This document shows positions 1,016 to 34,225 of a DNA stretch of 35,850 nucleotides, piece by piece; position 1 is the stretch's first letter, and each line of letters begins with the position of its first letter. The DNA is taken from IMG/VR virus record IMGVR_UViG_3300025646_000158, positions 1 to 35,850 of that record; one strand, 5' to 3'. The notes under the pieces were generated by a model. That model was not told the DNA's origin. It made no database searches and saw only the letters and a program-made list of their open reading frames with translations. A program made the position numbers and the translations under genes. This DNA comes from a virus.

Positions 1016-2353
1016 ATGAAATACGAAATTAAAGAGTATTACAAGCAACAACTAATAGATCAGATGATTGAAGAAGGTCGTCTACGAGACATGGTAGGTT
1101 CTGCAATTGAAAAAGGAGCAGAGGTAGTAGGTAAATTTGTCCCACCCATTGCACTATCAGCTGCACTTATCGCTAGTCCACACCTTGCCACACAACCCCA
1201 AGGACGAACGAATGTTGGAAGATCACAAATTAAACAAGTAGAAAAAGAAGGAACACCAGCATCTACTACAACTTCTACTAAAATAACTCAAGGAAAACCA
1301 GGCACTCCTGGAACTGCCGATGACCCAGGAGTACCAGATCTGACTATTAAAATTCCTGATATTCCATCATTAAAAATTCCTTCTTTTAAGATTCCAGGAA
1401 CAGGTTCAAAAGGAAAAGCAGGAACCCCAGCGACTCCAGATACAGTACAAACTGGAACATTTGAAGGATCTTTTACAGGACAAAAAGATCCAAAAACAGG
1501 TGAAGCAAAAGTTAGAGATGGAAGTATTTTACCTGGAGCAGATACATTTCACGTTAAAACTAATGACCGTGGTATGATTGATATGATTCAAAAAAGATCA
1601 GTTCCTGGTTCTATAACACACAAAGCAGCGTCTGAAGCACTCAAGGGTACTGTTGTTCCAGGATCTCCAGCAACTCCTGGTACACCAGCAACTCCTCCAC
1701 TTGCCACTCCATCATTTGAATTGTTTGGTGGCATGAAAGGCAGAACAATTACTATTCAAGGAAGAGAAGCAAAAGCAGGCACTCCTGGAACACCTGGGAC
1801 TCCTAGTACCATGGAAATATCAACAACTACCACTCCTGGCACACCAGCAACTCCTGGTGTCAGGACCGCAGATCATACCAGAGGTATTCCTGATGCGTCT
1901 CTTCATCTGGTTCCAAATCGTTCAGAATATATCAAACCAGAAGAAATTGAACCAGTAGGAACCAAACGAAGAAGAGGATCAACAACTCAACCCCCACAAA
2001 CATCAAACGATGGATCTGTAAGAGTTCCTCCACAAACATCAAACGATGGATCTGTAAGAGTTCCTTCGCCAAGACCAACACCATCACCTACACCATCACC
2101 TACACCATCACCTACACCATCACCATCTCCTACACCAACACCAGAAGATGAAGGAGTCGAAGTGCAGTCGTCTAGGCTAGGTCGTGTTCCCGTAAATAGA
2201 AATCTACTGACTGGTAAAATAACAAGACCAGGAGGAAGAGGAGTAGGATCAAGAACAGTTCCTAGTGGATCATCTGCCGCGAGGCGTGGAAGTGCTCCTT
2301 CAATCATGGATGACTTTGACGTGGTGAATTGGTTTAAAGAAAGATTAAAATAG
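1016..2353 (+). CDS. Pro/Thr/Gly-rich low-complexity protein with capsid-targeting-like N-terminus
   Basis: 445 aa; GAGG lies 8 bases before the ATG, inside repeat A. The N-terminal about 20 residues (KEYYKQQLIDQMIEEG) form an amphipathic helix with an I-x-E site (I18-E19-E20), similar to the next gene's start. Residues about 26-50 are hydrophobic (GAEVVGKFVPPIALSAALIA). Most of the rest is disordered: repeated PGTPGTPATP-like segments, paired 'KIPxxPSLKIPSFKIP' units, two copies of a 12-residue PPQTSNDGSVRV repeat and a (TPSP)n run, then a compact end (MDDFDVVNWFKERLK). I infer a head-packaged or membrane-interacting virion protein; the long Pro/Thr spacer suggests a flexible tether. No enzyme motif is visible. 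The gene is flanked by repeats A and B. Confidence 0.8.
   Translation: MKYEIKEYYKQQLIDQMIEEGRLRDMVGSAIEKGAEVVGKFVPPIALSAALIASPHLATQPQGRTNVGRSQIKQVEKEGTPASTTTSTKITQGKPGTPGTADDPGVPDLTIKIPDIPSLKIPSFKIPGTGSKGKAGTPATPDTVQTGTFEGSFTGQKDPKTGEAKVRDGSILPGADTFHVKTNDRGMIDMIQKRSVPGSITHKAASEALKGTVVPGSPATPGTPATPPLATPSFELFGGMKGRTITIQGREAKAGTPGTPGTPSTMEISTTTTPGTPATPGVRTADHTRGIPDASLHLVPNRSEYIKPEEIEPVGTKRRRGSTTQPPQTSNDGSVRVPPQTSNDGSVRVPSPRPTPSPTPSPTPSPTPSPSPTPTPEDEGVEVQSSRLGRVPVNRNLLTGKITRPGGRGVGSRTVPSGSSAARRGSAPSIMDDFDVVNWFKERLK
1994..2065 (+). repeat. 36-bp tandem repeat, two copies, in coding sequence
   Basis: Two perfect 36-base units (1994-2029, 2030-2065) encode the 12-residue repeat PPQTSNDGSVRV in the low-complexity protein. 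Confidence 0.9.
2081..2122 (+). repeat. 12-bp tandem repeat encoding (TPSP)n
   Basis: About 3.5 copies of the unit ccatcacctaca, coding for alternating Thr-Pro/Ser-Pro. It is a simple-sequence tract likely to vary in length by slippage. Confidence 0.85.
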
Positions 2354-2393
2354 TTAAACAGGAAATATAGTCTTATATAGCGCCGTACACAAA
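2354..2393 (-). repeat. Repeat B, copy 1: displaced 3' end of the ruvC-like gene
   Basis: 40 bases matching 3163-3202 at 39 of 40 positions. Read on the minus strand it encodes CTALYKTIFPV-stop, the same C-terminus (CKALYKTIFPV-stop) as the convergent RuvC-like gene. It is a remnant of that gene's 3' end placed between two plus-strand genes. Confidence 0.9.
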
Positions 2394-2397
2394 CTGG

Positions 2398-2438
2398 CTG
2401 GAATCTGGTTTTTATAAATAAAAAAAGAGGTAAAGTAA
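2398..2438 (+). repeat. Repeat A, copy 2: displaced 3' end of the spanin-like gene
   Basis: 41 bases duplicating 975-1015. Loss of one C turns the CATAAATA box of copy 1 into a perfect TATAAATA late-promoter box here, so the remnant now acts as the leader of the next gene. Confidence 0.9.
2413..2420 (+). promoter_or_regulatory. T4-type late promoter (TATAAATA)
   Basis: An exact TATAAATA box 32 bases upstream of the ATG at 2453. It is followed by a strong AAGGAG ribosome-binding site (2441-2446), six bases from the start codon. It should drive the 237-aa gene late in infection. Confidence 0.75.
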
Positions 2439-2452
2439 TAAAGGAGTCAATT

Positions 2453-3166
2453 ATGAATTACAAAGAATATTTCAAAGAACAATTAGTTGAAGCAATTATG
2501 AAAGATGCATTACCGTTAAACGAATTAAATGTCATGGGTGCATTTAGACAAGGACGGGAATCTGGCGGCATTTTGGGTGGATTGAAAAGTGCATCTTCAG
2601 CATTTGCATCCAATGTAAAATCTAGAGGAGTGGCAGGAGCATTATTACCAAGTGCCGCAATCCGAAGTACTGCCGAAAAAGTAGGCGAAGTAATACAAAG
2701 AGGAGATACGTTAAGCAATGCTGGTAGATCTGGTTTTGTTGATCGTGGTAGATTGGATCAATTTAATAGGCCTGTAGCTAGTAAAAATCCTCTAGAACCA
2801 CAATCTAGACATAAAGGATTTGTAACCCCAACAGGCATTGAACAACGCGGTGCAAATATCAGTGCTACCGATAGGAAACGCGATGAAAATATTAGAGATA
2901 CTGATAAACAAGCAAATGCTTGGTTGCAAACAAAAGGTAGTCAAATACGCAGCGCGGGATTTGGTGCTTTTGATAGATTATCTAAAATAGCAAGTTCTAA
3001 GGGAATAGATCCCAGTGTGGTGGAATCTGGAATACAAACTGGACGAAAAGCACATTACGCTACTAATACATTAAGTACTCCTATGGGCCTTCGACGCGGG
3101 GAACGGACTCCTATGGGGGGAACTGCTGTAAGAATGATGAGAGCAGACAGACAGCAGAATGGTTAA
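2453..3166 (+). CDS. Putative head-cargo protein in the second cassette, function unknown
   Basis: 237 aa, with AAGGAG six bases before the ATG and a TATAAATA late promoter upstream. The first residues (MNYKEYFKEQLVEAIM) align with the previous gene's KEYYKQQLIDQMI, while the bodies share nothing obvious. This N-terminus contains an L-x-E site (L11-V12-E13), as cut by T4-type prohead proteases. The rest is basic, Gly/Ser/Arg-rich and mostly soluble, with no catalytic motif I recognise. I infer a late protein targeted to the prohead and possibly DNA-binding. Its stop codon (3164-3166) overlaps the stop of the convergent RuvC-like gene, and the shared bases belong to repeat B. Confidence 0.8.
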   Translation: MNYKEYFKEQLVEAIMKDALPLNELNVMGAFRQGRESGGILGGLKSASSAFASNVKSRGVAGALLPSAAIRSTAEKVGEVIQRGDTLSNAGRSGFVDRGRLDQFNRPVASKNPLEPQSRHKGFVTPTGIEQRGANISATDRKRDENIRDTDKQANAWLQTKGSQIRSAGFGAFDRLSKIASSKGIDPSVVESGIQTGRKAHYATNTLSTPMGLRRGERTPMGGTAVRMMRADRQQNG

Positions 3167-3202
3167 ACAGGAAATATAGTCTTATATAGCGCCTTACACA
3201 AA
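3163..3202 (-). repeat. Repeat B, copy 2: native 3' end of the ruvC-like gene
   Basis: This is the functional 3' end of the minus-strand RuvC-like gene (encoding KALYKTIFPV-stop); the other copy is at 2354-2393. One mismatch in 40 bases suggests a fairly recent duplication or ongoing homogenisation. Confidence 0.9.
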
Positions 3203-3717
3203 TAGTAAGCATCCACTATATCGGTCACTGGACTCCCAACGTGCGTTTTGTTGGGAGTTATTTCTTGGTGAAGATCAATTCCAGTCTCTTCGTGAAATGC
3301 CTTAACCATTGTTTCCTTGTCGGCATTTCCTTTTCCAGTTGCCAGTTTCTTTGATTTGCTGGGTTCTATGATCTCAACGGGAATGCTCTGTTGGTATAGT
3401 TTATACTTCAGGACTCCAGTATTCTCGGCAATATTAAATACTCTTCCTGTCGCATTGTAGGCATATCCCTCAAGTCCAACTTGATCACATCCAATACAAA
3501 TACGCATTACCCATTCGGATATAGAATCATACCTTTCTGAGTCCTGTGAATAGGGTTCAAATAGTTCCCCATGCACATTCTTCAGAAAGGTCTGACCGTA
3601 CTTCTTTACGTCTGTGAGAAAGTAGCAATTACAATTAGCGAACTTCAACTCTCTCTTTGTATCATATACACAGATTGCTGGACCATTTAAAGAGTAATCA
3701 ATTCCTGCTAGGATCAT
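3163..3717 (-). CDS. RuvC-like Holliday-junction/branch nuclease
   Basis: 184 aa from the ATG at 3717; an upstream extension would add about 27 residues that overlap the neighbouring gene and do not look coding. It shows the RNase-H-fold resolvase pattern: a first-strand Asp in AGIDYSLNGPAICVYD (D7), a Glu in GLEGYAYNATGRV (E83) and a closing Asp pair in SPVTDIVDAYYL (D166, D169), the usual metal-binding acidic residues of RuvC. In T4-like phages such an enzyme would resolve branched DNA before packaging, a role T4 itself gives to the unrelated gp49. It is the last gene of the late minus-strand unit and converges with the plus-strand cassette. A CATAAATA box lies five bases before the ATG and no ribosome-binding site is visible, so the message may be leaderless. 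Confidence 0.85.
   Translation of the reverse strand: MILAGIDYSLNGPAICVYDTKRELKFANCNCYFLTDVKKYGQTFLKNVHGELFEPYSQDSERYDSISEWVMRICIGCDQVGLEGYAYNATGRVFNIAENTGVLKYKLYQQSIPVEIIEPSKSKKLATGKGNADKETMVKAFHEETGIDLHQEITPNKTHVGSPVTDIVDAYYLCKALYKTIFPV
3232..3258 (+). terminator. Possible terminator for the plus-strand operon, inside the antisense ruvC-like gene
   Basis: A perfect 9-bp inverted repeat (ACTCCCAAC / GTTGGGAGT) with a 9-base loop, followed on the plus strand by TATTTCTT. It lies about 65 bases past the last plus-strand stop. On the minus strand there is no following T-run. The tail is only moderately T-rich, so efficiency is uncertain. Confidence 0.4.
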
Positions 3718-3739: not shown

Positions 3740-5812
3740 TTATTCCCAGTTGTTAAGTATAAAAGATAAATCCATCGAATCGGTGGTTCCATCTCCATTA
3801 AGGTCGGTTCCCCCAGCCTTACCCCAATTTCCCATTATTTTTGACATCCCTGAAGCATCAAACTTTAGTTCAAATCCAGGAATTCTATCGTAATGTGATT
3901 TTGCTTCAGTTCCTAACCACTTAGTTAGCATACCCAACCTTGCTTGATTGAGTCCATGTCTTGACGGCGAAACCGTATCGTCCCATCCAAGGTGCTGTAT
4001 ACGCTCCTCGTCAGGACACTCACCAAACCTAGTGCTGTAGTCGGATACGGATGTTCCGCTTCCAAGAAGAATCTCACTCAACCATCCCCATGTCTCTCCA
4101 CTCACATAGCGCACATCTCCTGTCGTGTCACGGAGACGCTTGAGAGCGGCATATGGCATCAGGAACGCTCCCGCTGCAATCATGGAGTATATGTCGTTGT
4201 AGAATGACATATCGTCCCAACGAAGGTTCTCGGGTAGCAATACTTTTCCATTCCTGCTGTAGTAATATCTGCCTATGTCGGAGCGATCCTCGTCCACAGT
4301 TCCATTTCTTGCTGCGAAGAGTTCGATGGTCGATGACGCATCAGGTGTTCCGTTGATCCAAGGTCTGTCAAGGATCAAGAAGTCGATGGGATACGATCCA
4401 TTCTTTCCAACGGTGAGAACCTTGTAGTGGGTTGATCCCGCTCCTGCTCCTCCCGTAATCTTAAGATATGCTCCGTAGTAGTTCTCTCTTTTCGTGTGAT
4501 GGTTTGCTGTTGGAATCCAAAACTTGCTCACATTCAACTTGGCGAACTTACCTGTCATTGGAACATAGTCGAACAGGTTTACGCTCTCCACAGTTTCAGC
4601 GGAAGTTACGGTGTACTCTGATTCGGGTTTCCATGTCTGTCGAATGTAGTATCCGAAGTCGGGTTCGTCTGTCACCTGACGGCAAACAAAGTCATCACAG
4701 AACATCAAGTACCCAATGTCTTTATCTGAAAGGTTTGAAACTGCGGTTCCTGTGTGGTGGTTGCGAATGCTAGCATATAGGCTCTTCATTGGTTCGTTAT
4801 TTAACCACCAACCAGCAAGAAGAACCCACGGTTTGATTTCCGCACAACGATGCCCTGCTCCAGATGAGGTATCAATCAGAGATAAAGCACAACCCCATGC
4901 ATCTATTGAATATTGAATCAGTCGATTTCTTGCAAGATCACGCTGCTCTCTGGTATTGCGAGTATTTGTGGCATCTCGTAAAAGAACTGCAAGATATCTT
5001 GAAGCACCATTTCCATAGTATGTTACTGTTGATGTATTAACATTTGGTGCTGTTGAAATTCCATATTGTCCAGCCGAACTTTGGTTGGAAACCACTTCTC
5101 CTTCGTGATATGTTGGAGATGAGAAGTAGTGGTGTGATTCATATGGAATATTTGAGTTGTGTTCCAGATCTGTTTCATCTGTTCTCACGGAAGACAAAGG
5201 AATCGGGTCTGGTCGAGTTGAACCCATCCACTGGAAAGGAGGTCTAAAACAAGGCTCAGATGGGGCTTCAGCAAGCACGGTAAGAACACCGATCCGCTTG
5301 ATTCCTGTTCTCCATCTTCCAATTGAGTTGGGAATGAAGTCGTTTATTGCTTCTCCTTCACTTGGTTCATGCCACATAGATGCTGCGGTGACAATGACAT
5401 CACCCGCAACGAGTGGAGTAGGCAGAACGAGTGCCTGATCATTGTCGTAGTCAGCATCCACCTTTTGTTGTGTTCCAGTATTGTTTCCTGGATAACAGAC
5501 ACGACCATCAAGAAAGTATTTCTGTGAACCCAAGGTTGCAATCTGCTCGTAAGGTCTTGGATCGTTTGGATCGTGATATCTCGACGGCAAGGGATTCTTT
5601 GCCGATCCGTTGATCCATACATCTACAGGTGCAGGGAATCGGGAATTGGTGTGTGTGGTTGTCTTTCTCTCCCGTGCAGGGGAAACTGCGGTAAGAACCG
5701 CACCTTCCTGAACAACTACCCAAGGACTGCCATCCACAAATGTTCCTGAAGAAACCACACCTTCGATGTCCCACTCAAAAAGTGAATCGCCGTAATCTAG
5801 AGTTATCTTCAT
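3740..5812 (-). CDS. Large dockerin-ended virion or surface-acting protein, function unknown
   Basis: 690 aa, starting in an ATGA overlap with the protease gene, with AAAGGA as ribosome-binding site. The N-terminal about 250 residues look beta-rich; the centre (about 265-370) is helical with conserved-looking Trp/His/Cys (AWGCALSLIDTSSGAGHRC, then KPWVLLAGWWL), followed by another mixed region. The C-terminus (about 650-690) is a dockerin-like calcium-binding unit: a degenerate first repeat ending in MGNWG, then DLNGDGTTDSMDLSFILNNW with the D-x-N-x-D-G loop. I do not recognise the main body; a glycan lyase or surface-adhesion protein is a guess. It appears more GC-rich than the flanking fibre genes and may be host-derived. 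Sharing a dockerin with the next gene suggests the two act together or bind the same calcium-dependent partner. Confidence 0.8.
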   Translation of the reverse strand: MKITLDYGDSLFEWDIEGVVSSGTFVDGSPWVVVQEGAVLTAVSPARERKTTTHTNSRFPAPVDVWINGSAKNPLPSRYHDPNDPRPYEQIATLGSQKYFLDGRVCYPGNNTGTQQKVDADYDNDQALVLPTPLVAGDVIVTAASMWHEPSEGEAINDFIPNSIGRWRTGIKRIGVLTVLAEAPSEPCFRPPFQWMGSTRPDPIPLSSVRTDETDLEHNSNIPYESHHYFSSPTYHEGEVVSNQSSAGQYGISTAPNVNTSTVTYYGNGASRYLAVLLRDATNTRNTREQRDLARNRLIQYSIDAWGCALSLIDTSSGAGHRCAEIKPWVLLAGWWLNNEPMKSLYASIRNHHTGTAVSNLSDKDIGYLMFCDDFVCRQVTDEPDFGYYIRQTWKPESEYTVTSAETVESVNLFDYVPMTGKFAKLNVSKFWIPTANHHTKRENYYGAYLKITGGAGAGSTHYKVLTVGKNGSYPIDFLILDRPWINGTPDASSTIELFAARNGTVDEDRSDIGRYYYSRNGKVLLPENLRWDDMSFYNDIYSMIAAGAFLMPYAALKRLRDTTGDVRYVSGETWGWLSEILLGSGTSVSDYSTRFGECPDEERIQHLGWDDTVSPSRHGLNQARLGMLTKWLGTEAKSHYDRIPGFELKFDASGMSKIMGNWGKAGGTDLNGDGTTDSMDLSFILNNWE

Positions 5813-6858
5813 GCTCGTCCTTTCGTGTTGTTGGGATCAATCGGATCCACCGTAGTGGTGTTGAACACAGCATTGGGAGAGAGATCGTAACTTCCCCATT
5901 GTGCTAGTAGTTCTGCCATGTCTGCGGCATCAACCTTTCCATCTCCGTTGAAATCACCAATCTCTGGATTCACTCCCCACGATGCCATGAAGATCGCCAG
6001 ATCCTCTCCGTCCACTACACCGTCTTGATTGAGATCCTGCGGAATGGCTGTCATCTTGTCGTAGGAAACGCTGTATCCGTGTGGAGCCAACTTCTCGTTG
6101 ATATTGTCGATTGTCTCTTGAGGGAATGAAGACCCACCGAACATGAGTCCAAGAAGCAAGGTTTCTCCCTTGTCATTCACCACGAAAGCGGGTGAACCCG
6201 AATCGCCAACGAACACCGCAGGATCTCCCGTGGTAGCATATGCTCCATCGTTCACTCCATCTAGACTGGGGTCGCTGTTCCAACCGATGAATTTCCCATC
6301 AACGAATCTTGCCTGTTTGAAGAGCCTCTTGTAAATCTTGCCATTGGAGTCCTGAACCCAGATTGGAGTTCCACGGGGAATGTAGGCGGCATCCGCGATC
6401 TTGTTGTAGATGTAGAACTCACCCTCTGGAACAGGCTGATCGAACTCAAGAAGTGTCTGATCCCCACCGATGCTCAAGGTCACACCAACAACCTTGACTG
6501 TATGGCGAAGTCCTGACTTGCCAAGAAGAACGATACCACCCGTATTGTCATTTGGATCGGGTCTTGGACCACGGAAGTGCTGACAAACAATCATGTGCTT
6601 TGGAGAAACCAAAACACCACCGTAGGTGCAACAATTCCAGAAGTTTACATTCTCACGGTCAAATTCAAGACCATAAGCAGATCCAGCCAGAGTACAGAAA
6701 TGTCGATTTCTTGCCCGACATCCTGAGAAGTCAGCAATCCCATATGCTTGGCAATCTGGATTATAACCAATAGGTGCTGCTGTTTGAGTTGTCGATGCTA
6801 CTCGGTTGTATTTGTATAGATCGTGAACCTGTGAATTATAGTATTTCAGTATTGCCAT
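5809..6858 (-). CDS. Trypsin-like serine protease with C-terminal dockerin repeats
   Basis: 349 aa. The N-terminal about 270 residues carry a chymotrypsin-fold pattern: GGVLVSPKHMIVCQHF (catalytic His94 in place of the usual AAHC), GGDQTLLEFD (Asp133) and VGDSGSPAFV (Ser220 in GDSGSP). All three triad residues are therefore in order. Residues 275-322 hold two EF-hand-like dockerin repeats (DLNQDGVVDGEDLAIFMASWG and DFNGDGKVDAADMAELLAQWG), each with a D-x-N-x-D-G loop and ending in WG. No signal peptide is visible, so it is probably delivered as a virion component or released at lysis. It could process virion proteins or degrade host surface proteins. It starts within the 3' end of speD, with AGAGGA as ribosome-binding site, and overlaps the 690-aa gene by ATGA. 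Dockerins of this style are common in planctomycete proteins. Confidence 0.85.
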   Translation of the reverse strand: MAILKYYNSQVHDLYKYNRVASTTQTAAPIGYNPDCQAYGIADFSGCRARNRHFCTLAGSAYGLEFDRENVNFWNCCTYGGVLVSPKHMIVCQHFRGPRPDPNDNTGGIVLLGKSGLRHTVKVVGVTLSIGGDQTLLEFDQPVPEGEFYIYNKIADAAYIPRGTPIWVQDSNGKIYKRLFKQARFVDGKFIGWNSDPSLDGVNDGAYATTGDPAVFVGDSGSPAFVVNDKGETLLLGLMFGGSSFPQETIDNINEKLAPHGYSVSYDKMTAIPQDLNQDGVVDGEDLAIFMASWGVNPEIGDFNGDGKVDAADMAELLAQWGSYDLSPNAVFNTTTVDPIDPNNTKGRA

Positions 6859-7237
6859 AAAACATTCCTCTTTCTATAAAGTGTTCTTCGCTAGTTGTAA
6901 ATTCAAAATACTTCTTTGCAAAATTGTAAATTGTAGTTTGATCAAACTTATTACACGAATACACATCTAGGGTAATAAATCTGGAAGGTTCAAGTGAATG
7001 AATTTGTATACCCGATTTGATTAGAGGAACCCAACCACTCACTCCTGCTTTCTCTGGGTATATTTCAACACCTTTATTTCTTGGTCCGTGCATGACTACT
7101 GGCTGACTCATTCTAGTCATACCAATTTCATCTACAAGATTTTCCAAGAATCTATAATGTAGTTCTAAATCATCCGCTGCACCTTCACGACAATGATACA
7201 TGTCTAACAAATAAGAATATCCAAATGGTTTTTTCAT
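6836..7237 (-). CDS. speD: S-adenosylmethionine decarboxylase proenzyme
   Basis: 133 aa, the size of small prokaryotic AdoMet decarboxylases. The proenzyme self-cleaves at a Ser to create a pyruvoyl group, then decarboxylates AdoMet to supply aminopropyl groups for spermidine. The active-site array is intact: S75 in PLIKSGIQIHSLEP, H80, and C95 in LDVYSC. The spacings of 5 and 15 are exactly those of S63/H68/C83 in the Thermotoga maritima enzyme. The residue before the cleavage Ser is Lys instead of the usual Glu. The C-terminus carries the FIERG typical of the family. TTAGGAAA precedes the ATG. It is an auxiliary metabolic gene among structural genes, possibly serving polyamine neutralisation of packaged DNA. 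Its 3' end overlaps the protease start by 23 bases and is partly duplicated at 8945-8971. Confidence 0.85.
   Translation of the reverse strand: MKKPFGYSYLLDMYHCREGAADDLELHYRFLENLVDEIGMTRMSQPVVMHGPRNKGVEIYPEKAGVSGWVPLIKSGIQIHSLEPSRFITLDVYSCNKFDQTTIYNFAKKYFEFTTSEEHFIERGMFYGNTEIL
6869..6895 (-). repeat. speD 3'-end repeat, native copy
   Basis: 27 bases encoding TSEEHFIER near the end of speD and also serving as leader of the protease gene. It matches 8945-8971 at 25 of 27 positions. Confidence 0.85.
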
Positions 7238-7245
7238 AAAATTTC

Positions 7246-8934
7246 CTAAATATAAGTCACTCCGAGAGGAGGTGTTCCCAAATCGTTCAGGAATGAATCA
7301 CCTCTGATATATGAATCTTCTACCACAACATTACTATATGTTCTTCCAGCAAGGAATTCTGTTCTCCAGACGACTCCAGGTCCATTGAAAGAGCATCCCT
7401 TTATATAAACATTGGTTGCTGTTGCACCAAACGTAACTACATTCTGATCGTCACCAACTCCTGTTGATTTATCAATCGTAACTCCTATTATAGCACAATC
7501 TACTACCCCTGCACCTACTCCTGCAAAGATTCCTTGGAAATCTTGAGTAGAATCTGCATTGTAAAGATTCTGAAGAATTCTATTCTTAAAGGACTTGGAA
7601 GCACCACCCGCATCAAATTGGTAGAAGTCTGGGTGGTTTCCTGTGCCAGAAAAGTCTAATACATCTGCCATAGAATCAATTACAAGACCACCCTTACTAT
7701 AGGCATCTCCAGAGATAATACCAACAGTACAACCTCTTGCAATCTCAGTATCAACAAATCCGTTTAACGAACCAGTAAGACCACAGTGTGTAACCCATTG
7801 TAATCTAAATCCGTTTGTCCAGTTACCACTTGTTAATCTTCCCATTCCATTGAACTGACAATCGTTTACCCACAACATTGCATACTCTGTGGTGTTTGGT
7901 TGTGTTGCTGTATATAGAATCGTATTACTTGCCATTGCTCCTGCATATGGAGCAACAGTTACATTGTCTAGTTTTATCTTGGTGACTCTTGCTCCACCCG
8001 TATCTGTTGACTTCTGTGTGATAGGAGCAGATGATGATTCTATTCCTTCTTGTGGAGCAACTGTCAACCAAGAGTACTTCGTGTGTACAAAATTTCCGAA
8101 GGTATAATTTGCGTATGTGTGACCAATTGTTACACCTTCTGGAAGAGACATAAGTCTTACAATTCCACCGTCAACAAAAGTAGTTCCCATAAGAGAAAAG
8201 TATTCATTTGATATAAGTTTAGATGCTTTAGCAATTGTTAGTACTGGATTTTCTTCTGACCCATCATTTGAATCGCTACCCTGTACACTGACGAATTTTT
8301 CTACTACTGGATATGTCTGGCCAGCATCGGAAAGGAAGAACATACCATGAATACCATCAGAATCCGCAATGCTGTCATAAGTACCAAAAGATGGCAATGT
8401 TCCACCAAGAACTAACGGTACACCTACGTTTGGATATACGATTGCTCTGATCTCTGCATAATCACTAGATGCTGGATGATAATTACTCATTCCAGTCGTG
8501 TCAACTGTTGCAAAGTATTCTACAGTCTTGCTGTCAGAGTTATAACTAACACCTGATACAGATTCCCAAGTTCCTCCATTCAGAGAGAAGTCTATGTGAG
8601 AAATTCCTCTAAAGTGATGAGCAACTACACCGACATTAAATGTTCCACCGAGTATTTGATATGGAACAAAATTCCAACGAGCAATTGCATTTGCATCATA
8701 CCCCCAATCTTCAGGATCCCCAACGGCAGAAGGTTGTTCCGTTGGTCCTTCAAATCCAAGACCTGAATATATTATAGGAGTCGATGTTTGTATAGGAGAT
8801 TCTGGAACAATAATTTCATTATCATTCGAATTTAAAGATCTCATAGCAATTTCTTGTAAAGCATAAAATAATGCTCCAGTTGTAGGAATTGCCCTGAATT
8901 TAGAATTTAAGTATTTTCCTTGTTCGTATGCCAT
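7246..8934 (-). CDS. Beta-helix (pectin-lyase-fold-like) virion protein, possible tailspike or depolymerase
   Basis: 562 aa. The N-terminal about 230 residues are beta-rich and may anchor the protein to the virion. At about residue 220-245 it has VEKFVSVQGSDSNDGSEENP followed by VLTIAKAS, the 'G-x-D-x-N-D-G-S-x-x-x-P' entry motif that precedes right-handed parallel beta-helices in many carbohydrate-active and tailspike proteins. The following about 300 residues are regular short strands rich in Gly/Asn/Asp/Val, as expected for helix rungs. A catalytic residue cannot be assigned. The gene lies next to speD and the dockerin proteins in a late unit; a CATAAATA box lies 36 bases upstream. The start (MAYEQGKYLNS) follows a copy of the speD 3' end and loosely resembles the start of the protease gene (MAILKYYNS). 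Confidence 0.75.
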   Translation of the reverse strand: MAYEQGKYLNSKFRAIPTTGALFYALQEIAMRSLNSNDNEIIVPESPIQTSTPIIYSGLGFEGPTEQPSAVGDPEDWGYDANAIARWNFVPYQILGGTFNVGVVAHHFRGISHIDFSLNGGTWESVSGVSYNSDSKTVEYFATVDTTGMSNYHPASSDYAEIRAIVYPNVGVPLVLGGTLPSFGTYDSIADSDGIHGMFFLSDAGQTYPVVEKFVSVQGSDSNDGSEENPVLTIAKASKLISNEYFSLMGTTFVDGGIVRLMSLPEGVTIGHTYANYTFGNFVHTKYSWLTVAPQEGIESSSAPITQKSTDTGGARVTKIKLDNVTVAPYAGAMASNTILYTATQPNTTEYAMLWVNDCQFNGMGRLTSGNWTNGFRLQWVTHCGLTGSLNGFVDTEIARGCTVGIISGDAYSKGGLVIDSMADVLDFSGTGNHPDFYQFDAGGASKSFKNRILQNLYNADSTQDFQGIFAGVGAGVVDCAIIGVTIDKSTGVGDDQNVVTFGATATNVYIKGCSFNGPGVVWRTEFLAGRTYSNVVVEDSYIRGDSFLNDLGTPPLGVTYI

Positions 8935-15678: not shown

Positions 15679-16791
15679 TCATCCAAATAGGGATTCTAGT
15701 GTTGCTTTTCTTTCGTGCGACCAACCGATTGTATCTAGGATATTGCTCAGTGGGTCAATAAATGCTTTTTCAAATTGTGTTTTGTAATCAATAAACTTAT
15801 CAAGACCAAACTCTTTTGGAAGAACATTGGGAAAGGCAATTACCTGATCCTCTCCTTTGTTTCCTCCAAGTGGATTTGGTTTCTTCAAGTGAAGATACTT
15901 GATCTTATCACCTTCAATGATATCGCGATACTTCTTGTCCAACTTGAATCGCGAGAGATAGTGATTATAGATCAGAGATCCCTTCACATGCATCGGAGTT
16001 GACTTGCGGTAGATTGTCAACTTATCGCGATACTTGTTTAATCCATTCACCGAACGAGGAAATGCGATCTCTTCGGGAGACAGGGAATAGAATTCAGTTT
16101 TACACTTATCCACAAACTCAATCATCTCATCTTCCGTGCTGTTGAGAATGAGATCAATTGCTTCCTTCAGTCTCTTGCGAACTATCTCTGGAGTTGAAGA
16201 ACGAGTCGTTTCAATTCCCATGATTTTGAGTTTTGGTTCAGAATATCTTACTCCTTCTGAATCCAGAACATTCAACATGTACCGTTTCTTCGCAGTCCAG
16301 ATTCCCTTGTCGGCAATCACCTCTCTACCCATGAACATCTTCTGATCATAGGCATTCATGATATCTGAGAGTTCTTCAAACTTCTTTTGAATGAATGGGA
16401 GAATGATCTTCTCACATGCGGTGTCAATGTAATTGATCTTCTTGTCTTTTGGAGCATTCGCTACAAACTTCTTCACCAGACAGTTCAAATTCAGATAGAC
16501 AGAATCTGTATCGGACGCAATGACATAATCAACACCATCCGTTCCCACGGTAGTGTTGATGAAGTCGTTCAACTTTTGACCAATCCACTGAATTGCCAAC
16601 TGACCAGAAAGTGTAATTGCCTCTGCCAATTCGGTGGAATAATATCGGAAGTATTCGTTTCCAATCGCACCATAAGCAGAATTCAGTTGAATCTTTCTTA
16701 CAAGTTGGAAATTATGATACTTGGCAATGTCTTTTTCTGTTTGCTCTTTGAGAGCGAAAAGTTGTTCATCTGTCAGTTTGGTAAGGGTCAC
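15679..16791 (-). CDS. 43B: DNA polymerase (family B, gp43), C-terminal part of a split gene
   Basis: 370 aa, GTG start overlapping the upstream stop as TAGTG. It contains polymerase motif B ([15 protein letters not shown], 32-45) and motif C (ASDTDSVY, catalytic D94 and D96), the KKRYMLN region and the thumb. It ends in KATLESLFG, equivalent to T4 gp43's KASLDFLFG clamp-binding tail. The exonuclease domain and motif A are missing; they are on the gene at 19693-21174, 2.9 kb upstream in the same operon. Together the halves total 863 residues (T4 gp43 is 898), so little is lost. The cut is in the fingers domain between motifs A and B. The two chains must associate to form the active site. Confidence 0.93.
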
Positions 16792-19675: not shown

Positions 19676-19704
19676 ATTATACCACAAATGGGTCAGTCTG
19701 TCAA
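19676..19704 (-). promoter_or_regulatory. Perfect consensus sigma-70 promoter at the polymerase split
   Basis: TTGACA (19704-19699), a 17-base spacer and TATAAT (19681-19676) on the minus strand, an exact match to consensus. The -35 box lies in the final codons of the polymerase N-terminal gene. Standard geometry puts +1 at 19669, the A of the TrmH-family gene's ATG. Confidence 0.9.
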
Positions 19705-21174
19705 GCCCCTACGGCGCAATTCCTCGTTGATGTCTTCGAGCATTTTCTTTGACTCAATCATTTTGTTTTTGAACATTTTACGATCTTTGTACATGCTGTC
19801 CATGAGTTCAGGAAGAAATCCCCGAATATCTTTTCGGTATGTGGTTCCGTTGGCAGCAGTTGACAGATTCTTCTTCTTATTATCTTCAAGAATTTCTGTA
19901 CATACGCTAGATTGCTTCAACAGACCCTCTGGGGAAATTGAAGCACGAATTCCATCATCTGTCATCGTCTCTGGAGAGATATTATACTGCATGATGAGAT
20001 GTGGATACAGAGAGTTCAAGTCAAAACTCACCACCCAGTCATGGAATCCAACGATTGGTTCCTTGACATATGCACCCGCATATTGCTCATTCTTTCTTGA
20101 TTTCTTCTTTGGTGGAATCGCAATTCCTCTCTGAAGCAGATCGTTGTAGATAATGACATCCCATGTACGAACCTGAGAAAAGACATCTGAATAATTCACA
20201 CCCGCAGAATATGCAAGTGCGATTGCGAGTTCAATCAGACGAAGTTTATCTTCCAGTTTCTGAACCAGTTCAACGTCGCGAATATTATAGGCAATGAACT
20301 TCTGAAAGTCCTTCTTGTAGAACTCTGTAATACTTTCGAACTCTGCATATGAGAGTTTCTTCTCTCCAAGTTCTACATACGAAATATGATTCAGACTGTA
20401 CGATTCTTGATTCGTATATGTAAAGGTCTTGTAGACCTCGTAATAGTCAAGAGTGGAAATGCCGATCAGATCGAACGCACTCTCTTCCTTACCCTTGCGA
20501 TTGATTCTCTTTTCTTTGATAATACCCCAAGGAGAAAGCAACTTGACATACTTTCGTCCAAGCACCTTTCCGATGCGATTTACAAGATAGGGAATGTCAA
20601 AGAAACGAATGTTCCAACCCGATATGACATCAGGATAATTGTCGCTGAAATACTTGACAAAATCTCTGAGAAGTTTTGCTTCTTCCTGATACTCAAAGAC
20701 CTTGATGTCTTCTTCGGTGGAGAATGTACCCAAGCAGAATGTTGCTTTTCCTGTTCTAGTTGACGATACAGTGATTGCAAGGACTTCCTCTTCTGGATTG
20801 TCAATGGACGGAAACCCGTTCTCTGACGCAGTTTCAATGTCGATGTACATGATGTCGATCTTGGAGAAGTCATAGTTATGCGTACCACCGTAGTGCTTTG
20901 CTAGAAACTGATACTCTTGTTGAATCTCACCGTGAATTTCAAATCCAGGAATTGTCGCATACTTCTCAACGAACTCTTTGTATTGTTCGTGATTATCAAA
21001 CCTCATCTCCATCAGAGGATCACCAATGATGGATTTGAGATCGCATCTTCCACTTGACGGAAGATAAACAGAAGGACTGTGTTCCTTCTCAGAATACACA
21101 GTCTTTCCGTTTTCATCCTTCTCAGCAAGAAGGATCCCTTTATAGTTGTAATATGCGTTTGTGTAAAATCTCAT
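19693..21174 (-). CDS. 43A: DNA polymerase (family B, gp43), N-terminal part of a split gene
   Basis: 493 aa, starting in an ATGA overlap with the upstream gene. It holds the 3'-5' exonuclease motifs: Exo I MYIDIETASENG (D112, E114), Exo II GWNIRFFDIPYL (N188, D193) and Exo III YNIRDVELV (Y296, D300). Polymerase motif A FDLNSLYPHLI (D385) follows, and the chain ends at RRRGLTD in the fingers region. Motifs B and C are on the gene at 15679-16791. No intein-like sequence is present at the junction, so the parts are expected to assemble non-covalently. Split gp43 genes are known in some T4 relatives, typically with homing endonucleases nearby, as here. Confidence 0.93.
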   Translation of the reverse strand: MRFYTNAYYNYKGILLAEKDENGKTVYSEKEHSPSVYLPSSGRCDLKSIIGDPLMEMRFDNHEQYKEFVEKYATIPGFEIHGEIQQEYQFLAKHYGGTHNYDFSKIDIMYIDIETASENGFPSIDNPEEEVLAITVSSTRTGKATFCLGTFSTEEDIKVFEYQEEAKLLRDFVKYFSDNYPDVISGWNIRFFDIPYLVNRIGKVLGRKYVKLLSPWGIIKEKRINRKGKEESAFDLIGISTLDYYEVYKTFTYTNQESYSLNHISYVELGEKKLSYAEFESITEFYKKDFQKFIAYNIRDVELVQKLEDKLRLIELAIALAYSAGVNYSDVFSQVRTWDVIIYNDLLQRGIAIPPKKKSRKNEQYAGAYVKEPIVGFHDWVVSFDLNSLYPHLIMQYNISPETMTDDGIRASISPEGLLKQSSVCTEILEDNKKKNLSTAANGTTYRKDIRGFLPELMDSMYKDRKMFKNKMIESKKMLEDINEELRRRGLTD

Positions 21175-25155: not shown

Positions 25156-27720
25156 TTATCCTGTTACTGTCCATCCCTTTGCGGTTGCAATTGACGGATC
25201 GTCCGATGCAGTTCCCCAATTGTTTGTTACTGTGATTGTTTTTCCTGTCACCGTTGGCAGATTTGTATAAATTTCATTCAATTCGGTTGCTCCCAAAAAA
25301 CAACCAGTAACGGAAATATTCTGATTGAATCCAGTTGCTCTAACTCTGGATAATGATCTACAAGTATTGAATATACTAGAATACACAGTTGTACCCGATG
25401 ATCCTGAAAATTGGTAATCTGGTATTTCTTGTAAACTTGTACAGCCAGTAAACATACTTTGGTATCCAGTCGATATTATTGAACCCGTTCTAGGGGTTAA
25501 TTTTCCTAAAGATGGTGCTTTTCTTAAATTACTACAGTTACCAAATATTCCAGAAAAGTTACCACATACTTCAAAATTTAAATTTGGAATATTTGTCAAA
25601 GAAGAACAATTATAAAACATGTTATTAGCACTAGTAACTCTGCCCACATCCAAAAATGGCAAATGTTTCAACGAATAACAACTATTAAACATACTAGTAG
25701 CAGTCGTTACCAAACTAATGTCTAAATTAGGTAGTTCTTGTAAAGAACTACAACCTTGAAACATCTGAGTAGCAGTTGTTACCTTTGAAGTATCCAAATT
25801 TGGTATTCTTGTCAAAGAATAACAATTATAAAACATACCTGACATACTAGTAGCATTTGTTGTGATTAGTTCTTCAATTTCTGTAAGTTTCGAACACCCA
25901 TATAGCATAAAAAAACAATTAGTACTTTTCCCTACATTAAGTTTTCCTATTCTTCTCAAAGAAGAACAACCATAAAACATATTACTAGTATTGGTACAAT
26001 TGCAGAGATTGAGTTCGTTGATTGTTTCTAGGGAAAAACAATTATAAAACCCTCTGATTGCAGTTGATATTTTACTTCCATCAATAACAGGAATTTGAGT
26101 TAAAGAGTAACAGGAATCAAATGCGTTATCAAAACTAGACGGGGATGCTTGTGGAAGTATTGGAGATACTTCCAGTAAAGAATAGCAATTTCTGAATGTA
26201 CCACTCATGGTGGTAGCACTGCTAAAATCCACATTTATTTTTTGTAATTTATAACAATTAAAAAATGTTTGACTAAAATTAGTAACATTACTGGTATCCA
26301 TTTCTGGAAGTTTTAATAGTGCATAACAATAGGCAAATGTGTTACTTAAAATAGTCGCACTGCCAGTATACAAAGAAACTATTCTTTTCAAAGAAGTACA
26401 ATAATGAAATACACTAGAGTATGAAGTTACAGAATTGGTTCCTATCATTTCAAACTGTAAAAGATTATTATGATATGGAGGAGATCCCGATCCCATCTGT
26501 ATAGTAGTCAAATTTGGCGCAGATATTCTTATATCAAGCCATTTGGTAGTTTGATATGTACTAGTACTAAATCCTGACGGAAATTCATAATTTAAATCCA
26601 TAGTAGTCAGATTTTGTCCTGCTTGTGGAGTGACTGTAATGATAACGGATTTCATGTTATCATATGGATCATCCGCAATTGCAGCATATTCTGTGGTCGT
26701 ATATTGATGACTTACTGATGTACCCGATGCAACATTTTGAGGAGAACTTCCATCACCCCAATCAACGGTATATGCTCCTAGAAATCTTAAAGTAACCCAA
26801 TTACTATCTGTATCTGTAATACCATACAATCCTACAAACTTTTGTTCTCCTTCAGAAACACTGGGAAGAGGTTTCCATCCTCCTATGGTTACGGTTACTG
26901 GTGTGCTGAACAATTCAGATGTAGTTGCTGTAATCCCAGTAACAGCACCACCAGAGATGGTTGCGGTTGTTACTGTAACATGCTTATTTTCTCCAGAAAC
27001 ATGAACAGTTGGTACTTCAGTATATCCTGTTCCTCCACTAGTCACTGTGAAAGAACCGAGTGATCCAGTTACGGTTGCTGTTGCTGCTGCTCCTGTTCCT
27101 GGTCCACCAATACTTATGGTCGGCGCACCAGTATATCCAGTACCACAAACAACGGTACTTACACCAGAAGCCTGTCGTGTTCCCCCTCCACCAGAAAAAG
27201 TAACTGTTGGATTTGATGTATAATTACTTCCTACATTTGTAATTGTTACAGAAACGACTCTTCCGTTGTCTATTACTGCGGTTCCTGCTGCTCCAGATCC
27301 ACCCCCAGAAGAAAATGCAACCGTAGGAGCAGATGTATAACCTTCTCCTCCGTCTAGAATTATTACAGAAGAAACTGTGTATCTAAGAGTAATATTAGTA
27401 ATTGCTCCACCAGAAACTGTTGCGACTGCTGCTGCTCCTGATCCTCCTCCACCAGAAAAGGTGATCGTGGGAGCGACACCATACCCAGAACCACCAGCAT
27501 TTAAAGTTACGGCAGTTACAGATCCGTCTACAATATCTACCGTTGCTGTTGCTCCATTTCCGTTTCCATTTGATGGACGAATATATTCTTCTGTGTCATA
27601 TAATCCTCTGTCAGAAAATTTATTTCTGTTATAAATCTTTGAAGAAGAAATCATACCTTCTGATACATTTACAGCACGATTTACTCCAATATATCCGTTG
27701 TTTAATCTTTGCTTTCTCAT
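25156..27720 (-). CDS. Large tail-fibre protein with Gly-rich repeats, PKD-like domain and BspA-type leucine-rich repeats
   Basis: 854 aa from the ATG at 27720, which overlaps the previous stop as ATGA. Layout: an N-terminal MRKQRLNNGYIG segment; residues about 50-290 with repeated 'GGSGYGVAPTITFSGGGGSG' type units (about five); a PKD-like piece containing YTVDWGDGSSP; then from about 380 some twelve repeats of about 22-24 residues of the form MFxxCxSLxxIPxLDxSxVTxAT, the BspA/DUF285 leucine-rich repeat type. A C-terminal strand-rich cap follows. Such repeats form solenoids that bind proteins or glycans. I infer a receptor-binding fibre. Repeats of this kind are readily exchanged, and the sequence is AT-rich and Cys-rich compared with neighbours. 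Confidence 0.8.
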   Translation of the reverse strand: MRKQRLNNGYIGVNRAVNVSEGMISSSKIYNRNKFSDRGLYDTEEYIRPSNGNGNGATATVDIVDGSVTAVTLNAGGSGYGVAPTITFSGGGGSGAAAVATVSGGAITNITLRYTVSSVIILDGGEGYTSAPTVAFSSGGGSGAAGTAVIDNGRVVSVTITNVGSNYTSNPTVTFSGGGGTRQASGVSTVVCGTGYTGAPTISIGGPGTGAAATATVTGSLGSFTVTSGGTGYTEVPTVHVSGENKHVTVTTATISGGAVTGITATTSELFSTPVTVTIGGWKPLPSVSEGEQKFVGLYGITDTDSNWVTLRFLGAYTVDWGDGSSPQNVASGTSVSHQYTTTEYAAIADDPYDNMKSVIITVTPQAGQNLTTMDLNYEFPSGFSTSTYQTTKWLDIRISAPNLTTIQMGSGSPPYHNNLLQFEMIGTNSVTSYSSVFHYCTSLKRIVSLYTGSATILSNTFAYCYALLKLPEMDTSNVTNFSQTFFNCYKLQKINVDFSSATTMSGTFRNCYSLLEVSPILPQASPSSFDNAFDSCYSLTQIPVIDGSKISTAIRGFYNCFSLETINELNLCNCTNTSNMFYGCSSLRRIGKLNVGKSTNCFFMLYGCSKLTEIEELITTNATSMSGMFYNCYSLTRIPNLDTSKVTTATQMFQGCSSLQELPNLDISLVTTATSMFNSCYSLKHLPFLDVGRVTSANNMFYNCSSLTNIPNLNFEVCGNFSGIFGNCSNLRKAPSLGKLTPRTGSIISTGYQSMFTGCTSLQEIPDYQFSGSSGTTVYSSIFNTCRSLSRVRATGFNQNISVTGCFLGATELNEIYTNLPTVTGKTITVTNNWGTASDDPSIATAKGWTVTG

Positions 27721-27914
27721 CTGATGAACCAACCTCTCGCAGTTGTCTCTATTGTAGTTGATGTTGTATCGTATCTATTCACGATTACTTCATTATCCCA
27801 AAAAATATTAAATACATAAACCGTTGATTTTTCTGATGGTGGTTCTGGTGGTTCTGTAAGTTTTCTAGGAAATGAAGATGCAATCACACCGTGGGATTGA
27901 CTTGGAATTATCAT
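27717..27914 (-). CDS. Short fibre-cluster ORF ending in RGWFIR
   Basis: 65 aa, coupled on both sides by ATGA overlaps. It has a Pro-rich patch (TEPPEPPSEK), a strand segment (VYVFNIFWDNEVIVNRYD) and the end TTARGWFIR. The end and the following gene's start (MRKQRLNNGYIG) match the junction at 35086-35089 (RGWFFL, then [12 protein letters not shown]). It may therefore be the N-terminal domain of a fibre protein made as two chains, or joined by frameshifting. Confidence 0.6.
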   Translation of the reverse strand: MIIPSQSHGVIASSFPRKLTEPPEPPSEKSTVYVFNIFWDNEVIVNRYDTTSTTIETTARGWFIR

Positions 27915-28648
27915 CCCGTCAACCCTCCAGCGATATTGAACACATTGCTGCTGTAGGAGATAAGGCTGACCGCAGCATGTTGTCCTGCCGTTGTCAACTT
28001 GCCTTCAAAACTATTTAGTGTAGTTCCAGATCCCGTTATACCGATTCCACCAGATCCAGTCTGTATTACCGTTGTATTGTATCCAACTGCCAATCCACTT
28101 GGAACCGTCAATGTGGCACTGCTCGCGGTATTCCATACAATAACTTTACCATTATCAGATCCGAGTAAAGTATAGGTAGTTCCACTTTGTGAGTTTATCG
28201 CACCAGAGGTTATCTGAAATCCCGTATCTGAACTCACATATCCCTGTATCTCAATATTTGCATCCACTTCATATGTTTCTGTATTTGAGTCATATGTGAC
28301 ACCGACAAGTCCATTTGAAGATACGGGTTGTATCCATTGAGACGATACTCCATCATAGATGTAGATATATTCCTTGCCTGTATCGGAGTCCATCCATCTG
28401 TCACCTACTTCTGGACTACCAGGAGGAGATGAAGTATAAGTAAAACCCGAAGCAGAAATGGTGACATCACCAGTTGTGCCATTTACACTCAACACACCTT
28501 GATTTGTCAACTCAACAGGATCACCAGAAGCATTACCAACAAATAGTTTCTTGTCTGAAATATTTACAGCAAGTTCCCCCTGCGACAAAGATGCCGCAGA
28601 AGGAACCGAACTTGGTGTTGTGCTATTTTTGATCTTGATCGTTGACAT
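27911..28648 (-). CDS. Tail-fibre protein with MSTIKIK-type N-terminus
   Basis: 245 aa. The N-terminus (MSTIKIKNSTTPSSVPSAA, then SLSQGELAVNISDKKLFVG) is the attachment module common in fibres of T4-like environmental phages and is shared with the gene at 29191-30909 (MSTIKVK). A middle 'SPPGSPEVGDRWMDSDTGKE' unit and a Gly/Thr/Ser beta-rich C-terminus follow. Probably a short fibre or fibre adaptor. It is a late structural gene by context. Confidence 0.75.
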   Translation of the reverse strand: MSTIKIKNSTTPSSVPSAASLSQGELAVNISDKKLFVGNASGDPVELTNQGVLSVNGTTGDVTISASGFTYTSSPPGSPEVGDRWMDSDTGKEYIYIYDGVSSQWIQPVSSNGLVGVTYDSNTETYEVDANIEIQGYVSSDTGFQITSGAINSQSGTTYTLLGSDNGKVIVWNTASSATLTVPSGLAVGYNTTVIQTGSGGIGITGSGTTLNSFEGKLTTAGQHAAVSLISYSSNVFNIAGGLTG

Positions 28649-28658
28649 AATTTAATAC

Positions 28659-29168
28659 TCAGAATACGCCACCCTCAAGCTCTACTGTTTTCCTTTGCTT
28701 CTTTGCTGGTTTTGAAACAGTCTTGAGAACTCGTATTTCATCTTCTAGAGTATTTATCTTACTTTCAAATACCTTTTGAATCTGAGATGATTGTATCTCG
28801 ACATTTTGCTTTTCTCTTTTGAGATCTACAATCTTTCCGTGTGCTGATCTTAGTTGCTCTTCTAATTCATTAACTCTAGAACTTGTCGAAGTATTGTTTA
28901 CGATCTTTTCATTTGCAGATCTTAGTTGCTCTTCTAAATCTCTAATTTTAGAATTCAAACTAGCTTCCATATCCTTTGCTCTATTCTCAACATCAATAAC
29001 TTTTTTAGCATCAGATGAAGATGTGTTTGAAAGTTTCTCTGTTAAATCTTTTACCTTCGCCTGCTCAATCTGAAGATTGATATCCAGAATTACACTTGAA
29101 TTTAATAATTCTTGTGTTTTCTTTAAAAGTGAAGGCACAACGATAGAATCTGTATAGTTCGTTTCCAT
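28659..29168 (-). CDS. Coiled-coil virion protein
   Basis: 169 aa; AAGGAG precedes the ATG. Almost the whole length (20-150) is heptad-rich, with a duplicated unit LEEQLRSANEKIV / LEEQLRSAHGKIV about 28 residues apart and a basic C-terminus (KPAKKQRKTVELEGGVF). It could act as a fibre whisker, trimeric stalk or length-setting protein. No named family. Confidence 0.7.
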   Translation of the reverse strand: METNYTDSIVVPSLLKKTQELLNSSVILDINLQIEQAKVKDLTEKLSNTSSSDAKKVIDVENRAKDMEASLNSKIRDLEEQLRSANEKIVNNTSTSSRVNELEEQLRSAHGKIVDLKREKQNVEIQSSQIQKVFESKINTLEDEIRVLKTVSKPAKKQRKTVELEGGVF

Positions 29169-29190
29169 AATATAAACTCCTTATGTTTAT

Positions 29191-30909
29191 TTAGTAAGAT
29201 CCACCATCAACTGTATCAATAGTAATTAGACCAGATGATGCATTAAAATTAGTCGCATCAAAGGTTGCCAAACCTTTAGTTGAACCATCGGCAGCTGCGT
29301 TCTGAACTGCAAGTGTGAGAGTTCCAGAACCAGAAGTAACTGAACCGTTTGTGAGCGATATTACCTTGTATTCTGGTGCAGCTCCAGATCCTGTGCTTGC
29401 TACAACTGCTCCCGCAGTTGCTGATGTAGTCAAGAAAGTAGTACTTCCAGCTGCTGATTGATACGCAATTTGTCCCGTACCACCGTTTGCAAGATGTGTT
29501 GCAGTTGTTGCAGAACCGACCGAAAGTGAAGATTGACTTGTCCATGTTGGAGCAGAAGTACCAGCAGATGTAAGAACTTGACCTGAAGATCCTACTGATG
29601 TAAATTCAAAACTGTCTGAGTCTGAATAAACCACTGCACCAGCAGAAGCGGTTAGATTCTTACCAGAACCACCGTAGGCAAGACCGACTACAGTTCCGTT
29701 CCAAGTACCAGAAGTAATTGTTCCGACTTGGGTAAGTGAAGATCCTGTAACTCCAGAACCAAGAGCAGAAGCACTCAAAACTTCTGTGTTATTGATCTTG
29801 AAGACTTTACCAGTTGCCAAGTTCCAGTGTTCACTTGAGGTCCAGTTGCTATTTGCACTATCCCAAATGATGCTCTTATCGTTACCAGTACCACCTCTAA
29901 GGGTGATACCACCACCATTTGCGGTAGTATCATCTGGAGATGCAACAGAACCCAATTCGATGTTCTTGTCATCAACTGTAATCGTTGTTGCATTGATTGT
30001 CGTGGTTGTTCCGTTTACTGTAAAATCACCAGAAACAACCAGATCTTTATTGACGGTAACAGTTCCGCCTTCAGAAGAACCAAGATTGATATTTGTAGTC
30101 GAACCAGCAGCACCGCCAGTACCGATATTAAGTGTTTTGGTATTTCCAGAAGCAACAGCACCAATATTAAAATTTGTAGTGGATGTTGCCGTTGAATCAT
30201 AACCAAGATTTAGTGTTGTGGCATCACCAAACGCATCAACCGTGGTAGAAGTAGCATCAAATACTTTTTGTGTTGTTGTGCCTCTAATGACACCATTAGC
30301 AGTAATTACTGATCCGTATAGTGCGATATCTGTTGAAGCATCATTTTTTCCGATGGAAATCTGTTCTCCGTCTGTTGTTCCAATATCAATATTTGATGCA
30401 TTTGATATAAAAATATTTGCAGTGTTGTTGGTTGTTGTGATATCACCACCATTTACAGCAAGATTGCCAGCGATTGTGACATCGTTTGGGAGTCCTATGG
30501 TGACTGCGCCAGTAGCACCAGAAACTTCAATTTCATTGGCAGTTCCAGAAACAGATTGAACACCAACATTTGTAAATGTAATATCTTGTCCAGCAGTTAC
30601 AATTGCAATTCCAGTACCAGCTTCAAGATTTACAGCACCAGTAAGACCTTCAATGGTCGATACCGCGCCGCCACCAATTGCACCATCAACATAAGTCTTT
30701 ACTGCATTTTGTGTTGGTATTTTATTATCGCTGGCACTGCCACCACCAAGAGTAGCATTAGTATCTACTTCCGCACCAACACGAACCGAAGTTCCGTTGT
30801 TCTTTGTGACATAGAATGAATTTAGATTATCTACGAAAGCTGGTTCACCAAAGGTCAATCCAGTTGGAGGTGTAGATCCTGTTGTTCTCTTGACTTTAAT
30901 TGTTGACAT
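29191..30909 (-). CDS. Large repetitive tail-fibre protein
   Basis: 572 aa. It starts with MSTIKVKRTTGSTPPTGLTF, then GEPAFVDNLNSFYV, the module shared with the 245-aa fibre, followed by regular short beta repeats rich in Gly/Thr/Asn/Ala (AGNLAVNGGDITTTNNTANI and similar; TLNIGTGGAAGSTTNINLG). This is typical of trimeric beta-structured fibre shafts of cyanophage-like viruses. It ends in ITIDTVDGGSY, similar to the INIDGGIY end of the next fibre. Probably a long fibre shaft. Confidence 0.8.
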   Translation of the reverse strand: MSTIKVKRTTGSTPPTGLTFGEPAFVDNLNSFYVTKNNGTSVRVGAEVDTNATLGGGSASDNKIPTQNAVKTYVDGAIGGGAVSTIEGLTGAVNLEAGTGIAIVTAGQDITFTNVGVQSVSGTANEIEVSGATGAVTIGLPNDVTIAGNLAVNGGDITTTNNTANIFISNASNIDIGTTDGEQISIGKNDASTDIALYGSVITANGVIRGTTTQKVFDATSTTVDAFGDATTLNLGYDSTATSTTNFNIGAVASGNTKTLNIGTGGAAGSTTNINLGSSEGGTVTVNKDLVVSGDFTVNGTTTTINATTITVDDKNIELGSVASPDDTTANGGGITLRGGTGNDKSIIWDSANSNWTSSEHWNLATGKVFKINNTEVLSASALGSGVTGSSLTQVGTITSGTWNGTVVGLAYGGSGKNLTASAGAVVYSDSDSFEFTSVGSSGQVLTSAGTSAPTWTSQSSLSVGSATTATHLANGGTGQIAYQSAAGSTTFLTTSATAGAVVASTGSGAAPEYKVISLTNGSVTSGSGTLTLAVQNAAADGSTKGLATFDATNFNASSGLITIDTVDGGSY

Positions 30910-30923
30910 AGTTTATCCCCAGA

Positions 30924-32516: not shown

Positions 32517-32528
32517 TTTTTATTTCCT

Positions 32529-33157: not shown

Positions 33158-33179
33158 GAATGTCTCCGTTTATTATTTA

Positions 33180-34223: not shown

Positions 34224-34225
34224 GG

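Follow-up and report, generated by a model that had tools for sequence, protein, structure and literature searches.

Bacteria and archaea are known to use cohesin-dockerin pairs in enzyme complexes, which raises the question of what a dockerin does at the end of a protease encoded by a phage. The case arises in a 35,850-base virus record of an uncultured T4-like phage (IMG/VR record IMGVR_UViG_3300025646_000158, analysed over its full length and called the window below), in which two adjacent minus-strand genes are coupled by an ATGA overlap, as an initial annotation of the sequence had noted; the first encodes a protease-dockerin protein and the second is referred to here as its partner (Table 1). 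The same annotation had proposed a trypsin-like protease with a full triad followed by a dockerin, and this was confirmed. The triad consists of H94, D133 and S220, the serine lying within GDSGSP, and the C-terminus scores 29.4 bits against the Pfam Dockerin_1 cut-off of 22.9 (residues 274-317), with two canonical 12-residue calcium loops, DLNQDGVVDGED (275-286) and DFNGDGKVDAAD (302-313), so that both the paired calcium-loop repeats and the curated score of a type I dockerin are present; the NCBIfam 'GC-type dockerin' model gave 27.1 bits, slightly below its cut-off of 29. In a six-frame scan of the window only three such 12-residue loops were found, all within the protease and partner genes, against a mean of 0.0135 in residue-shuffled window proteins. 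The closest PDB matches of the phage dockerin are themselves dockerins, and it shares with the cellulosomal type I modules (PF00404; e.g. 1daq, 6kg9) two DxNxDGxxxxxD loops with their following helices, whereas its loop spacing of 27 residues is shorter than in the aligned cellulosomal dockerins and its carrier is a phage protease. The protein has no hydrophobic N-terminus and hence no signal peptide. Because its predicted structural model failed (predicted local distance difference test score, pLDDT, of 37 from a shallow, 5-sequence alignment), the fold assignment rests on sequence profiles, which make it a predicted serine protease of the S1 type with a type I dockerin attached.

Relatives of the protease were recovered from IMG/VR, starting from seven sister phages at 78% identity, followed by distant members found through a DNA pattern for the dockerin loop, and finally amounting to 33 loci with 21 distinct proteins that share 31-78% identity with the protein of the window. 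All 21 have the H/D/S triad unchanged and 19 of them retain the dockerin, whose loop ligands are nearly invariant despite the wide divergence of the proteins; this speaks for selection to bind calcium. In two loci (L167 and L168) the protease is instead fused to a region of 700 amino acids, which matched nothing in Pfam or the PDB (L167:8901-11105) and is therefore left unnamed. No match to either protein was found by tblastn in 50,697 named-phage records, neither PHROGs nor Pfam holds a family for the protease domain or for the partner, and our search of the literature on dockerins in phages found no description of such a family among the results listed. From these comparisons the dockerin-tagged protease is a conserved and previously undescribed predicted family of environmental phages, spread across diverse phages. 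A second open reading frame, 50% identical to part of the protease-dockerin protein, lies at the edge of locus L149 (16410-16997, minus strand). The general statement in the initial annotation that dockerins are rare in phages did not hold in that form, since one dockerin-loop pattern matched at least 118 phage stretches, though many of these are single EF-type loops. Very frequent among the matches is a phage protein of 131-134 amino acids (MGLTYDWKLIGLKKQNTE...) with a single DLNGDGFVDYRD loop, present in L017, L018, L024 and many more, which is of EF type and not a dockerin.

Where the protease domain comes from is indicated by its nearest cellular relatives found, which are S1 proteases with signal peptides from Verrucomicrobiota and Planctomycetota. 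A profile of the family matched 7 of 240 genomes of Verrucomicrobiota and 2 of 392 of Planctomycetota, and none of 247 Bacteroidota or 398 Pseudomonadota genomes, several of the cellular matches being short and not all of them genuine relatives; an earlier scan of genome contigs with the family had found no relative. Seven sequences from the PVC group (planctomycetes, verrucomicrobia), mostly proteins with signal peptides, were judged by eye to be related (L288, L290 and L292-L296). Aligned with this secreted set, the phage family gave an hhalign probability of 99.2% (E=6e-20), the three catalytic residues falling in matching columns; the secreted set in turn matched bacterial trypsins (93%, E=3e-7), one of its members (L293) exceeding the Pfam Trypsin cut-off at 28.6 bits. 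S1 membership is thus reached by profile through the PVC proteins; compared directly, the phage family matched bacterial trypsins weakly, and a single member matched Pfam Trypsin, also weakly (E=0.024). Phage and PVC proteases have in common the H-D-S order, the local motifs around it including GDSGSP, and the N-terminal YNxxxHD and DFSG/WSGVG elements, at which the phage proteins begin. They differ in that a signal peptide is present in most of the bacterial relatives and absent from every phage member, and in that the dockerin of the phage stands where the bacteria have PEP-CTERM or other tails. The N-terminal stretch MAxLKxYNxxxHD was also considered as a phage virion tag and rejected, since the secreted bacterial relatives carry it just behind the signal peptide. 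Our alignments indicate that the phage protease shares its stock with secreted PVC-group proteases, minus the signal peptide. The relationship to planctomycete-type secreted proteins foreseen in the initial annotation is accordingly upheld as kinship with the PVC group, and its narrower expectation, that the closest homologues would fall within Planctomycetota, survives by half, matches to the protease being commoner in the sampled Verrucomicrobiota.

The partner has a similar background. Over its N-terminal half it shows homology to a family of bacterial proteins, for which no Pfam name was found, with the blocks GQFANGDYWVV, FRPPY, QLGIDLYG and GRKWPILFAG, which in a 41-sequence set align with GTFVDGSPWVV, FRPPF, LIQYSIDAWG and KPWVLLAG of the partner. 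From genomes 79 loci of this family were retrieved, 35 of them from Planctomycetota by record title, and most of the bacterial members have signal peptides, which are lacking in the partner of the window, in the members at L161-L165 and in a member from a phage contig (L254). Domain order and motif blocks are shared over residues 11-339, but identity is only about 20-25%, GGHxxGRKWP is replaced by GAGHRCAEIKPW, and a C-terminal dockerin has been added. That both genes end in dockerin-like repeats, as had been claimed, is true of the protease with its two canonical loops and only in part of the partner, whose sole intact loop is DLNGDGTTDSMD; the half-repeat before it, FELKFDASGMSKIMGNWG, has no calcium ligands, and the Pfam score of 13-16 bits lies under the cut-off, so that neither the two repeats nor the score of a type I dockerin is present. 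Since the last loop alone is canonical, the partner is regarded as having a reduced dockerin. In the structural model the N-terminal beta domain is confident (pLDDT 80-96) and the remainder poor, and neither Foldseek (PDB and viral structures) nor VIA-align returned a significant match. Profile alignment identifies the partner as a divergent relative, with a reduced dockerin, of a bacterial family that is largely secreted.

Partner genes directly follow the protease in five loci of a second, divergent phage clade (L161-L165), whose proteases are about 37-40% identical to that of the window, whereas the closest relatives of the window (L003-L009) have no partner; the pairing thus recurs but is modular, and it may have had one single origin, which is compatible with the tree. 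Other clades have a gene for an exported protein in the downstream position. Outer-membrane-barrel-like proteins, assigned by signal peptide and C-terminal sequence pattern only, come next after the protease or the partner (L150:9326-10081, L164:6126-6926, L161:6366-7172); by BLAST, those of two clades are homologues with about 30% identity. The group statistics of the tree are disregarded here, since several loci without a barrel gene were labelled as having one. In a third group a signal-peptide protein of 416 amino acids adjoins the protease-dockerin gene (L145:9427-10677, plus strand, and likewise in L144 and L160). Two domains of this protein look weakly cohesin-like. Of the reading frames in all 33 loci it gives the best cohesin match, at 10 bits and thus below threshold, and hhalign gives a signal for domain 2 (P=0.003) and none for domain 1; it is a possible phage-encoded cohesin, a lead rather than a result.

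The ancestry among extracellular enzymes, the absence of export signals and the conserved calcium loops are most simply accounted for by a protein that is made in the cytoplasm and acts outside the cell. The explanation that we favour, with about even confidence, is an extracellular protease module, either virion-borne or released by lysis, which its dockerin holds at a cohesin-like site. Both proteins would be produced in the infected cytoplasm and would act outside as virion parts or following lysis; the calcium-loaded dockerin would plug the protease, together with the adjacent partner, into a cohesin-like site, which could belong to the virion or to the host or be encoded by the phage; there the protease would digest a protein of the host surface or matrix and the partner would bind or trim an associated polymer. 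Exported proteins beside the protease in other clades (barrel-like in two, the cohesin-like candidate in L144, L145 and L160) are consistent with this, as is the exchange of the dockerin for the 700-residue region on the same protease in L167 and L168. A cohesin/dockerin-anchored extracellular peptidase complex, the 'planctosome', has been proposed for the freshwater Nemodlikiaceae, planctomycetes of lakes (PMC6461901), which makes the cohesin idea of the initial annotation plausible without proving it; the peptidases of that complex are bacterial M12B and M14 metallopeptidases, whereas here a phage S1 protease is concerned. Several observations weigh against our explanation. The gene lies in a block of replication and nucleotide genes, with which, and not with the late structural genes, it also shares its GC content at third codon positions (GC3); the structure prediction of the protease itself failed (pLDDT 37); the first dockerin repeat of the partner is degenerate and its fold found no match; and a cohesin above the cut-off was found in none of 24 phage records, most of which are fragments. 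Among the Planctomycetota genomes sampled, 25 of 199 have a cohesin above the cut-off and 71 of 199 a dockerin, so that only some hosts could supply a cohesin. A further step, in which the dockerin-tagged surface protease of the phage and, in at least one lineage, the secreted double-cohesin-like protein of the next gene would form a cohesin-dockerin protease complex built or hijacked on the host surface, appears unlikely. That a phage family conserves a dockerin on a surface-type protease suggests use, or parasitism, of this plug-in system by phages in order to gain access to host surfaces or strip them. For phages whose hosts are little studied, the family would provide a concrete, testable target and a clue to who those hosts are.

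Two other explanations were considered, both of them rather improbable in our view. Three groups of relatives encode exported proteins beside the protease, and the GC3 of the pair resembles that of early genes; both could point to remodelling of the host surface during infection, in which the protease and its exported neighbours alter the envelope of the infected cell, e.g. to exclude rival phages; set against this, signal peptides are missing from every phage version of the protease and of the partner, which would close the Sec route to the envelope before lysis, and no exported neighbour was seen beside the pair in the window. The missing signal peptide and the position in the replication and nucleotide block would equally suit an intracellular enzyme that processes phage or host proteins into their mature forms within the cytoplasm, with the dockerin linking it to another phage protein. 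However, the relatives of the protease are secreted, the ancestry of the partner is secreted too, and dockerins normally depend on calcium at concentrations found outside cells. That the genes are mobile surface-protein cargo, i.e. domains of secreted proteins captured and shuffled by phages with the dockerin an inherited remnant that has no specific docking role, would fit the variable presence of the partner among close relatives, its degenerate first repeat and the missing dockerin of L167 and L168, but is very doubtful given that 19 of the 21 distinct proteases keep the dockerin across wide divergence with nearly invariant loop ligands.

The initial annotation had noted that the two genes look more GC-rich than the fibre genes, which could be read as a sign of foreign origin. 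Overall GC content is 0.48 for the protease gene and 0.46 for the partner gene, where the window averages 0.41; in GC3 the two reach 0.46 and 0.41, whereas several fibre and structural genes lie at 0.14-0.24. The replication genes (GC3 0.36-0.45) match the pair, so that the contrast is limited to late genes, and across the relatives the GC of the protease gene tracks that of its own phage, from 0.33 to 0.54; foreign origin by GC was rejected on these grounds. The late structural genes themselves (1016-3166, plus strand; 25156-35850, minus strand) mostly have a GC3 of 0.14-0.25, with exceptions such as 33180-35101 (0.37-0.43). A 20-kb stretch of the phage of the window, compared with 274 Planctomycetota genomes, matched tRNA-Gln genes, pieces of ribonucleotide reductase and one phage contig. 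That contig, T4-like and placed in a planctomycete bin (L327, G199:C198), was rejected as host evidence because its GC of 30%, against 65% in the other contig of the bin examined, makes it most likely mis-binned. Neither this search of Planctomycetota genomes nor GC content gave a usable link to a host. A PVC ancestry for these modules is suggestive as to the host, but surface modules of phages travel.

Table 1. Coordinates of the protease-dockerin gene, its partner and the flanking genes in the window.
Feature	Position	Strand	Basis
Protease-dockerin gene	5809-6858	-	Open reading frame, 349 amino acids; homologues at 33 phage loci
S1/trypsin-like protease domain, residues 1-271, with N-terminal YNxxxHD element	6046-6858	-	hhalign via PVC relatives
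C-terminal dockerin, residues 274-322	5893-6039	-	Pfam PF00404, 29.4 bits; match at 5908-6039, E=1.6e-7
Partner gene	3740-5812	-	Open reading frame, 690 amino acids; homologue directly downstream of protease in L161-L165
Partner residues 11-339, homologous to secreted GQFANGDYWVV...FRPPY...KWPILFAG family	4796-5782	-	hhalign 95%, E=3e-8
Partner C-terminus, canonical loop (residues 670-681) after degenerate half-repeat	3743-3874	-	Dockerin_1, 16.3 bits (3752-3805), below cut-off
S-adenosylmethionine decarboxylase	6836-7237	-	Pfam AdoMet_dc, 57.2 bits
RuvC-like resolvase, next gene downstream of the pair	3163-3717	-	phrog_159, E=1e-32

The pair is flanked on the minus strand by the genes for S-adenosylmethionine decarboxylase, which adjoins the protease in the relatives L008 and L143 too, and for the RuvC-like resolvase, whose position is kept in the sister phages L003-L009. 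Beyond the decarboxylase, a fibre-like protein of 562 amino acids (7246-8934, minus strand), possibly a beta-helix surface protein as judged by eye, has no match in Pfam, PHROG or NCBIfam and is absent from the same place in the sister phages. The T4-like gene set of the window comprises DNA polymerase (two genes), UvsX, a DnaB-like helicase, the RuvC-like resolvase and ThyX, together with a ribonucleotide reductase of the adenosylcobalamin type, and the top matches of the polymerase among named phages are Synechococcus myoviruses (50% identity). The polymerase is split between 15679-16791 and 19693-21174 (minus strand); the two parts are separated by about 3 kb, in which three tRNA genes lie (two Leu and one Gln).
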